Of a stretch of 64,000 nucleotides of DNA, positions 2,317 through 55,492 are shown piece after piece (within the stretch, counting starts at the first letter, position 1; each line of letters begins with the position of its first letter). A program made the position numbers and the translations under genes. Source of the DNA: Geminocystis sp. NIES-3709 (lineage in GTDB: Bacteria; Cyanobacteriota; Cyanobacteriia; Cyanobacteriales; Cyanobacteriaceae). Below the pieces are notes generated by a model. It did no database searches. It had not been told where the DNA came from and saw nothing but the letters and a program-made list of their open reading frames with translations. The stretch covers positions 496,001-560,000 of the forward strand of contig NZ_AP014821.1 in the NCBI RefSeq assembly GCF_001548115.1, written 5' to 3'.

Positions 2317-2412
2317 TATAGCGTTTTTCATAGTTACGGGGTACAAAAATAAAATTAAAGTTTCCTTGATTAAAAGATTTAATCGTACCTCATAATGGTA
2401 GAAAATGCTATA
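2317..2412. mobile_element. IS630-type MITE, copy 1
   Basis: This 96-bp segment starts TATAGCGTTTTTCATAG and ends AAAATGCTATA, with GGGGTACA and GTACCTCATAATGG just inside the two ends. These match the terminal inverted repeats of the IS630 element at 38977-40011. It has no coding capacity. The TA at each end fits the TA target duplication of the IS630/Tc1 group. It sits in the 438-base gap between the FAD oxidoreductase and the aldo/keto reductase. Confidence 0.75.
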
Positions 2413-8853: not shown

Positions 8854-8970
8854 AACAAGAAAGAATGGTATAGAATTGTATCTCAAGTTAAAAATAATCA
8901 TCAAGAAGTCTTAGGTTTTAGAAACTCCATTTGAGGTTTAATTAAAGTCTTAAATTCCTAATTCCTAATT

Positions 8971-9231
8971 AGGCTTTGCTGAATAAATCAGGAAGCTATA
9001 AGAATCAAGGCTCAAGAAATACGACATTAACAAAAAAGTGTGCCGTTTTAGCATTTTTTACTCAAAAACTTGACTTTTTCTCTCCCAAAGACACAAAGAT
9101 AATTCTTTTTTTTGTCTTGATATTAATCACTTTTTGTAAGAAATTAAACTAAGCTCAATACCAGAGTTTTTCATTGTTTAACCTAATACCCAATACCTAT
9201 TCCCCACCAAAAAACTTTTTCAGCAATCCCT
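8971..9231. mobile_element. 261-bp MITE, family A copy 1
   Basis: The left end AGGCTTTGCTGAATAA and the right end (reverse complement AGGGATTGCTGAAAAA) form imperfect inverted repeats, flanked by AATT on both sides (8967-8970, 9232-9235). Internal segments such as TTACTCAAAAAC are shared with 22024-22264 and 27728-27964. No open frame is present. Its right end lies nine bases before the ATG of the permease at 9241, so the permease leader is essentially this element. Confidence 0.7.
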
Positions 9232-21127: not shown

Positions 21128-21234
21128 TATAGCGTTTTTTACAATTATGAGGTACATTTTTTATTTTCTCTTGCCTTTTGCCTCTTGCCTTTCAACGACA
21201 ATCTTTGTACCTCACTAAAACGGAAATTGCTATA
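21128..21234. mobile_element. IS630-type MITE, copy 2
   Basis: This 107-bp element begins TATAGCGTTTTTTACA and ends AAATTGCTATA, with GAGGTACA and TGTACCTCACT inside the two ends. The first 29 bases match the resident IS630 terminal repeat apart from a few changes. It lies nine bases after the ktrA stop, so it may form part of the 3' end of the ktrBA transcript. It is nearly identical to the copy at 55400-55492, including the central TTGCCTTTCAA segment. Confidence 0.8.
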
Positions 21235-38976: not shown

Positions 38977-40011
38977 TATAGCATTTATCAGAATGATGAG
39001 GTACAGTAACAGCAATGGGTGAACCAATTGTGCATATCTAACTGTGTTACTTGCTCCATGGCTTTTCCAATCGCCTCTACTAGATCATGATAATTTCTCG
39101 GTTTTAGTTTTCTGATCTGATTTTTGACTTTCGACCAAAAATTTTCAATGGGTGAAAAATCTGGGGAATAGGGTGATAAATACACCAATGATGCCCCCAC
39201 TTTCTCTATTTCCTTTCTAATTGTTTCTCCTAAATGAATTTTTGCATTATCCATAACTACACAAGCTCCCACCCATAATTTGGGCACTAAATCTCTGATC
39301 ACAAAAGCCTCAAAAGTTAATCCATCTACAGAACCATAAATATTTCTTGATGCTACTACTTCCTTTAAGGATATTGCCGTCACTATAGAAACATTACCCC
39401 CTCTTTTCTGGGGTTTTTCTCCTCTGACTCTGTACCCTTTTTTTGCCCTACCATAAAGGCGAAGCATTGCTAAATTACTTCCCGATTCGTCCACAAAAAT
39501 TAAGTCCTCTTCATTAATTTCTCTCACTTTATCCCAATATTCAGATCTTTTTTGTTGAACTCTCTCACTATGTTTTTCTGTGGCATACAGTGTTTTTTTT
39601 TGACAGTATCGTCAAATTTACGACTGATTCTGTCAATAGTCGATGTACTGAGTTTAAGTCCAGTTTTTTTCTCAAATAACTCGGCTAATTCCCAGAGAGT
39701 AGCATCATTATTTTCGTTGATAATTTCTAACAGGACAACCGTTTGTTCAGGATTTATTTTGGGGGGTCTTCCCCCTGAATGACGAGGTTTGAGATCCCCA
39801 GTTTCTTGATACTGCTTGATTATCTTTTGTACAAAACTTTTTGCCACACCAAAATTCTTAGCTAATTGACGAATGGAGCATTGTTGCTTTTCACGAGCAT
39901 GAATAATCTTTTGTCTTAAATCCAAAGAGTAGGGACGCATTAGATTAATGTTAATATCGTCTACATTTTTTCATCTCAAAATTGTACCTCATCATTGTAA
40001 GAAACGCTATA
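38977..40011 (-). mobile_element. IS630-family insertion sequence
   Basis: The element of about 1.03 kb has terminal inverted repeats of about 29 bp (TATAGCATTTATCAGAATGA and, from the right, TATAGCGTTTCTTACAATGA, both continuing TGAGGTACA) with TA at each end. It carries one transposase in two frames. The transposase triad appears complete, so the element may still move. Its ends match those of the three short elements at 2317, 21128 and 55400. Confidence 0.85.
38988..39940 (-). CDS. IS630-family transposase, two frames joined by slippage at A9
   Basis: Frame 1 (ATG at 39940) encodes a helix-turn-helix region (SIRQLAKNFGVAKSFVQKII) and linker. Frame 2 runs to 38988 and encodes the catalytic DDE_3 domain with Asp in FVDESG, Asp in VVMDNAKIH and Glu in SPIENFW. 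A run of nine A at 39601-39593 lies where a -1 shift joins the frames: after VKKK the reading becomes TLYATEKHSERVQQKRSEYW, continuous with frame 2. The joined product is about 317 residues, normal for the family. Programmed or transcriptional slippage is more likely than decay because both halves are otherwise intact. Confidence 0.8.
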
Positions 40012-55399: not shown

Positions 55400-55492
55400 T
55401 ATAGCATTTTTTACAATTATGAGGTACATTTTTTATTGCCTATTGCCTTTCAAAGACAATCTTTGTACCTTACTAAAACGGGAATTGCTATA
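55400..55492. mobile_element. IS630-type MITE, copy 3
   Basis: This 93-bp element begins TATAGCATTTTTTACA and ends GGAATTGCTATA, with GAGGTACA and TTGTACCTTACT inside the ends. The centre TTGCCTTTCAA matches the copy at 21128-21234. An open frame at 55419-55601 that crosses it is not a gene. It lies between the two glycosyltransferase genes. Confidence 0.8.

Follow-up and report, generated by a model that had tools for sequence, protein, structure and literature searches.

A resident IS630-family insertion sequence in a Geminocystis genome and the type II MITEs that it could move in trans

A stretch of 64,000 nt from the genome of Geminocystis sp. NIES-3709 (C1:496001-560000 of an assembly of 4.43 Mb in 12 contigs; hereafter the window) contains an IS630-family insertion sequence (IS) and three short elements, M1 to M3, with similar ends. 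The locus raises the question of whether the IS could move the short elements in trans. All four elements lie at the positions proposed for them by a first-pass annotation of the same DNA (Table 1). Their eight ends do fit a common 28 bp pattern, TATAGC-N17-GGTAC; when the whole window was searched with TATAGC-N(8-16)-..GGTAC-like patterns, no ninth end of this class came up. The specific wording first given for the shared ends, GAGGTACA, is exact at both ends of the IS, but at only three of the six MITE ends, namely both ends of M2 and the left end of M3. The two ends of M1 read GGGGTACA and GAGGTACG instead, and the right end of M3 reads AAGGTACA.

Table 1. Features of the IS630-family element and of the short elements, in window coordinates
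Feature	Position	Strand	Properties and evidence
IS630-family insertion sequence	38977..40011	- (transposase strand)	1035 bp; five full copies in the genome; HTH and DDE_3 matches
IS left terminal repeat, TATAGC-N17-GGTAC	38977..39004	+	Outer TA read as target duplication; TA duplication supported at other copies
IS right terminal repeat, TATAGC-N17-GGTAC	39984..40011	-	Pattern scan of the window
ORF1, N-terminal HTH DNA-binding part, 138 aa	39524..39940	-	HTH_32 (7e-15), PAX (5e-8), HTH_Tnp_IS630 (1.6e-5)
A9 run, overlap point of ORF1 and ORF2 frame, proposed slippage site	39593..39601	-	A-run of at least 8 in 27/28 homologous loci
ORF2 frame, DDE catalytic part; stop inside IS left end	38988..39602	-	DDE_3 (1.3e-30)
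Short element M1, 96 bp, type B	2317..2412	no strand	End scan and paired-pattern scan
Short element M2, 107 bp, type A, three YTTGCCT heptamers	21128..21234	no strand	Absent in 4/4 same-genus genomes
Short element M3, 93 bp, type A, two heptamers	55400..55492	no strand	End scan and paired-pattern scan

M1 to M3 are without a gene, as originally described, and the nearly identical interior noted for two of them is shared by M2 and M3, which differ by 14 bp; this difference sits in and beside a heptamer array of three units in M2 and two in M3. The elements are short and gene-less, with IS-like ends and interiors unrelated to the IS, which is the make-up of type II MITEs. Comparison of the interiors of M1 to M3 and of a further type from this genome, type C, with the IS gave short chance-level matches only, the best being one of 14 bp for type C (E 0.013). 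This piece of the type C interior (L027:1501-1596) resembles window positions 39007-39020, just inside the IS left end, at 13 of 14 bases, and is perhaps a remnant or chance. An origin as type I MITEs, by internal deletion of the IS, was rejected, since resemblance to the IS does not extend far past the ends; the 14 bp match of type C is the sole hint in the other direction. In the DNA search with the IS, four MITE places were matched, each over 34 end bases, and the places 3358145 and 3064660 proved to be cut-down IS ends, not MITEs.

Further copies, which the first-pass annotation had proposed to look for, are present across the genome. A scan of the 4.43 Mb without a length limit identified 82 TATAGC...GGTAC ends, with none for the reversed control, and the paired end pattern (total length 81-111 bp) occurred 23 times, again with none for the reversed pattern. 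Sorted by eye, 18 of the 82 ends derive from the IS (five full copies, three interrupted copies and two solo ends), 50 belong to 25 two-ended short elements of 93-114 bp, and 14 are single, about ten of these apparently being complete short elements whose second end has mutated, and four being truncated. The short elements are thus multi-copy, as is typical of type II MITEs, with 25 two-ended copies; the flanking TA was part of the search pattern. The five full IS copies comprise the window copy, three copies without a difference and one with two differences, and all matches beyond these among the 20 obtained in the IS DNA search of the genome are partial. Six of the seven type C MITEs are identical over 96 bp and lie at different sites. 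The near-identity of the IS copies, together with the six identical type C MITEs, suggests that both kinds of element have been active recently.

No other transposon-sized element was seen by eye between a pair of such ends in the genome end scan. The genome contains 74 DDE_3 matches, and the five other IS630 groups with definable borders fall into three end classes, none of which is like TATAGC...GGTAC. For further IS630 copies (L038-L040, L074, L075 and L077), such an end was not found within the examined stretch. One of the other resident groups has at least 24 matches of 191 aa, with at least 99.7% identity between the members compared. Window positions 2181 and 17879 each carry 16 bp of the end of another resident IS630 group, one of them directly left of M1, and these pieces are likely solo ends. 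A region of ~103 bp at 8966-9068 of the window matches many places in three same-genus genomes (G002-G004), and represents a short dispersed repeat that is not of the TATAGC class.

The proposal that the ends of the MITEs and the IS pair better than chance was upheld at the positions that the search left free. The search pattern fixed 11 of the 28 end positions, and in the 17 free inner positions the 50 ends of the 25 two-ended elements agreed with the closer of the IS ends at a mean of 11.3 bases, compared with 5.8 after shuffling. The dinucleotide TT at positions 9-10 is invariant over the 50 MITE ends, though the pattern left both positions free. Over all 28 positions, identity between MITE and IS ends averages 22.3 (range 18-26), a mean difference of 5.7 (range 2-10). 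The end class goes with the transposase in relatives: of the 17 loci with transposase identity of at least 57%, 16 have the outer TATAGC at the 3' end, TACAGC is found in 7 of 7 loci below 45%, and the six loci between 45% and 57% are mixed. In this comparison, two rows that represent one place (L086 and L225) were counted once, and the inner GGTAC is imperfect in several loci. The MITE ends were only slightly closer to the IS of the host family in which they occur than to other IS, and not significantly so (p 0.094).

The mean of 5.7 in 28 bases by which the MITE ends depart from the resident IS end is consistent with a different history, in which the MITEs are the remains of an older, lost IS630 relative of the same end class and the resident IS came later. 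Similarly, three genomes of the same family (G003, G009 and G014) carry MITE types of this genome and have no transposase match at E 1e-40. Against this, the end scan revealed no other transposon-sized element with these ends, and the six identical type C copies, as well as the absence of M2 from four of four relatives, show movement in this lineage. We consider descent of the MITEs from a lost relative to be unlikely, and favour mobilization by the resident IS. Across 100 genomes, host included, the MITE pattern was not associated with a transposase match (12 of 31 MITE-bearing genomes vs 32 of 100 overall, p 0.23), where a match was E 1e-40 or better, gene wholeness was ignored and TACAGC-type elements were included; 19 of the 31 MITE-bearing relatives were without a match at this threshold. 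IS DNA matches were associated with the MITE pattern (18 of 31, p 0.006), a result that is partly circular because end-only matches count. After the fact, the missing co-occurrence could be attributed to the loss of repeats from draft assemblies and to loss of the IS after a burst.

Sites at which copies interrupt genes provide a record of movement. A type C MITE at G000:C1:1542984 splits a DUF7149/DUF7814-type gene, whose frame continues once the element is removed and one TA is kept. Pfam DUF7814 spans the rejoined junction, and a Dysgonomonas protein, the sole relative found in genome contigs, aligns across it with 49% identity. Likewise, the IS copy L005 splits a RusA-like gene, with PF05866 (3e-6) spanning the junction; this gene seems to be damaged upstream as well. 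Insertion at TA with duplication of the TA was accordingly seen at two of 28 joined copies (one MITE and one IS), and at the remaining joined copies there is no gene from which the former site could be read. An empty site in close relatives, as looked for from the outset, was recovered in part at 21128: the element is absent from four of four same-genus genomes and both flanks are kept, but the spacer is too diverged for the exact old site to be read. Relatives carrying the same short element at the same locus without the IS, which would have spoken against a link between the two, were thus not encountered there, all four same-genus genomes being element-free. For M1, M3 and the window IS, the neighbouring genes lie apart in the four same-genus genomes. 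From the gene-splitting copies and the absence of M2 in relatives, it follows that this lineage has seen movement of the IS as well as of MITEs. On the minus strand of one further locus (L085, positions ~1034-1348), an open frame seems to run into a type C MITE and stop there, and the protein would carry a MITE-coded tail.

The position and folding of the short elements could also reflect retention for a host role, for example as hairpins with a terminating or protective function at the 3' side of transcripts, with the shared ends as a by-product. M2 and M3 begin 8 and 12 bp past the stop of an open frame, and four of five elements gave RNA folding z scores of -3.4 to -5.2, the fifth giving -1.85. 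However, any inverted-repeat element folds likewise, there was no Rfam match within the window, the M2 locus is element-free in four relatives and one MITE copy breaks a gene. A host role as the reason for these elements is, in our judgement, very improbable.

Mobilization by the resident IS depends on its transposase, the motifs of which had been described as intact. This holds for the two functional parts, as both the HTH and the DDE parts are matched, but not for the gene, in which an A9 run divides the coding sequence between two frames. ORF1 matches paired-like HTH models (HTH_32, PAX and HTH_Tnp_IS630), and ORF2 matches the catalytic domain of the IS630/Tc1/mariner group (PF13358, 1.3e-30; NF033545, 4e-30). 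By sequence, the nearest solved chain is the Sleeping Beauty transposase (E 1.4e-4), and among plasmid relatives of the transposase, the best 20 of 1106 matched records are all cyanobacterial.

Among 28 homologous loci, the window locus included, 27 have an A-run of at least eight at this position, which represents a slippage signature. Relative to the upstream frame, judged by an upstream open stretch of at least 114 codons, ORF2 lies in -1 in nine loci, in +1 in 13 and in frame in two, and was unread in four. The occurrence of both -1 and +1 relations within one transposase subgroup is easier to reconcile with polymerase slippage than with a ribosomal shift of fixed kind, and it is this signature in the sequence that leads us to propose that polymerase slippage may yield the full-length transposase of the window IS. 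In another genome (G099), transposase copies vary in open-frame length, four being of 332 aa and most of 210 among the matches listed, as if the length of the A-run differed among copies.

These observations support a window composed of a resident IS630 and type II MITEs that the IS could move in trans. The shared ends, the many copies, the TA target and the recent activity all contribute to this support, and we infer that mobilization in trans is the best reading. In the mechanism that we propose, the HTH part of the transposase would bind the bipartite 28 bp ends (outer TATAGC, inner GGTAC), after which the transposase would pair two ends, cut, and reinsert the element at a TA that is duplicated in the process. 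Full-length transposase would arise solely on a frame change at the A8-A9 run, most simply by polymerase slippage, and this dependence would keep the protein scarce. Because only two ends would be needed, a stretch of 90-110 bp between such ends could be moved in trans, with an interior that is unrelated to the IS and often carries host repeats such as heptamers. Short DNA is stiff, and two bound ends would be expected to pair efficiently only when they lie on matching sides of the helix, a demand that would leave mostly elements of ~96 or ~106 bp to survive. Taken as a whole, the explanation (an active IS630, type II MITEs moved in trans, slippage, and lengths related to helical phase) appears to us highly probable.

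The last part of this model concerns the lengths of the short elements, which are widespread in relatives. TATAGC-type elements were found in 195 of 388 genomes of the host order (controls 0). The TACAGC type was seen in 16 of the 100 relatives scanned, and the 15 genomes of the host family had none. TACAGC-type short elements with other interiors are numerous in three genomes (G070, G067 and G085, with 34, 14 and 11 forward matches, respectively). Three scans of viral contigs with exact patterns revealed no such elements.

For the analysis of length, 177 elements, distinct within a genome, were taken from pattern-scan loci and from 99 places hand-picked among the matches listed, a further blindly chosen place (L434) having yielded no element; per-genome loci came from the first matches listed, the source scans covered total lengths of 81-111 or 82-141 bp only, and many copies resembling repeats of one already taken were left out. 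Here and in the grouping of interiors into families, a heptamer array was defined as 12 of 14 matches at lag 7, which 37 elements carry and 140 do not. The 140 heptamer-free elements fall into two main length classes, with 55 at 93-97 bp, six at 98-102 bp, 62 at 103-110 bp and 17 elsewhere. The same gap is seen in the modal lengths of 50 heptamer-free interior families (22 at 93-97 bp, none at 98-102 bp, 22 at 103-107 bp and six elsewhere), and it stayed empty of modal lengths with looser or stricter grouping (40 and 71 families). The strength of a 9.5-12 bp period within 86-111 bp was reached in none of 2000 simulations from smooth and flat distributions. The means of the two family groups are 95.7 and 105.4 bp, the second including lengths of 108 and 109, giving a spacing of 9.7 rather than 10.5 bp, close to a turn of the helix without equalling it. 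The 37 heptamer-bearing elements showed no two-class pattern, and spread over 99-137 bp.

The length classes may reflect a requirement for helical phase in bringing together the two transposase-bound ends of a very short element, an unproven interpretation. Very short transposons reportedly depend on helical phase in the laboratory, as in the length and twist constraints of IS50/Tn5. That is an assay result, whereas the present data concern IS630 MITEs in genomes, for which a natural length pattern is proposed. The chief alternative is descent, in which a few ancestral MITE lengths were kept in the absence of any phase demand. Descent accommodates the other lengths taken by heptamer-bearing elements and the breadth of the longer class, and the interior families may be related beyond detection. 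It sits less easily with the 22/0/22 division of the 50 families, with the presence of both classes in six of 20 tabulated host families (f1, f5, f9, f12, f14 and f32), assigned by hand from tables, and with the occurrence of both classes with TATAGC and TACAGC ends alike. In addition, a single interior family of nine members, from which one locus with another palindrome (L410) is left out, covers 87-108 bp (87, 88, 96, 96, 97, 101, 106, 106 and 108 bp). Descent from a few founders is a serious possibility, though somewhat short of probable. We hold with similar reserve, as a tentative proposal, that MITE lengths across the order are set by the helix (~96/~106 bp), in elements of unrelated interior that also repeatedly carry, and maybe spread, heptamer and palindromic repeats of the sorts described from cyanobacterial genomes.

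Heptamer arrays are concentrated in the short elements. With an array defined strictly as 13 of 14 matches at lag 7, a period-7 array was present in 10 of 64 elements and in 30 of the 3410 windows, each of 50 bp, taken from the flanks (Fisher p 1e-9). The 64 elements, one per locus, comprise 62 loci of relatives and two of this genome, with interiors that vary around 50 bp. By the same definition, 10 of the 62 relatives' loci alone have a period-7 array, and none has an array of period 3-6 or 8-12. The arrays differ in sequence between genomes, and we take them to belong to the repeats called STRR. To our knowledge, the spread of cyanobacterial tandem repeats lacks an explanation, and the link between these ends and heptamers would offer a vehicle for them.

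Systems that combine an IS630 with type II MITEs are already known; the additions made here concern the divided transposase gene, an end class that extends across the order, the two classes of length and the association with heptamers. A limited search of the open-access literature, which gives a weak negative, did not return this end motif, these classes of length or a connection to heptamers. What may be new is that a mechanical constraint on transposition would be recorded in natural genomes, as a length gap whose flanking peaks lie about one helical turn apart and which recurs across interiors without detectable common sequence.

Among known elements, ISY100 (ISTcSa) of Synechocystis PCC 6803 is described in PMC2170065 as a member of the IS630/Tc1/mariner group with two HTH motifs, a DDE domain and a TA target that is duplicated, and its 24 bp imperfect ends suffice with little else. 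It has in common with the window IS a small size, a cyanobacterial host, an HTH part, a DDE domain and the duplicated TA, the end letters lying outside the comparison; ISY100 is 947 bp long with one frame of 282 aa, whereas the window IS has 1035 bp and a gene split at an A-run (PMC2170065). A Roseiflexus IS630 is reported in PMC5009743 as being read via polymerase slippage (transcriptional realignment); the two have in common an IS630 with slippage, which for the window IS is known from its signature alone. With respect to the short elements, PMC3542288 records 147 complete or partial type II MITEs in Anabaena sp. 90, with short inverted repeats and mostly intergenic, and according to that paper these have no matching IS in their own genome, whereas the matching IS is resident here. 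Nezha, a cyanobacterial MITE cited in PMC10969869, is alike by kind as a short inverted-repeat element, its sequence lying outside the comparison. Finally, a MITE of Porphyromonas gingivalis that contains a minisatellite (PMC4596501) has a tandem repeat inside, as here; in the elements described in this study, the repeats are heptamers of differing sequence, within one end class and in several genomes.
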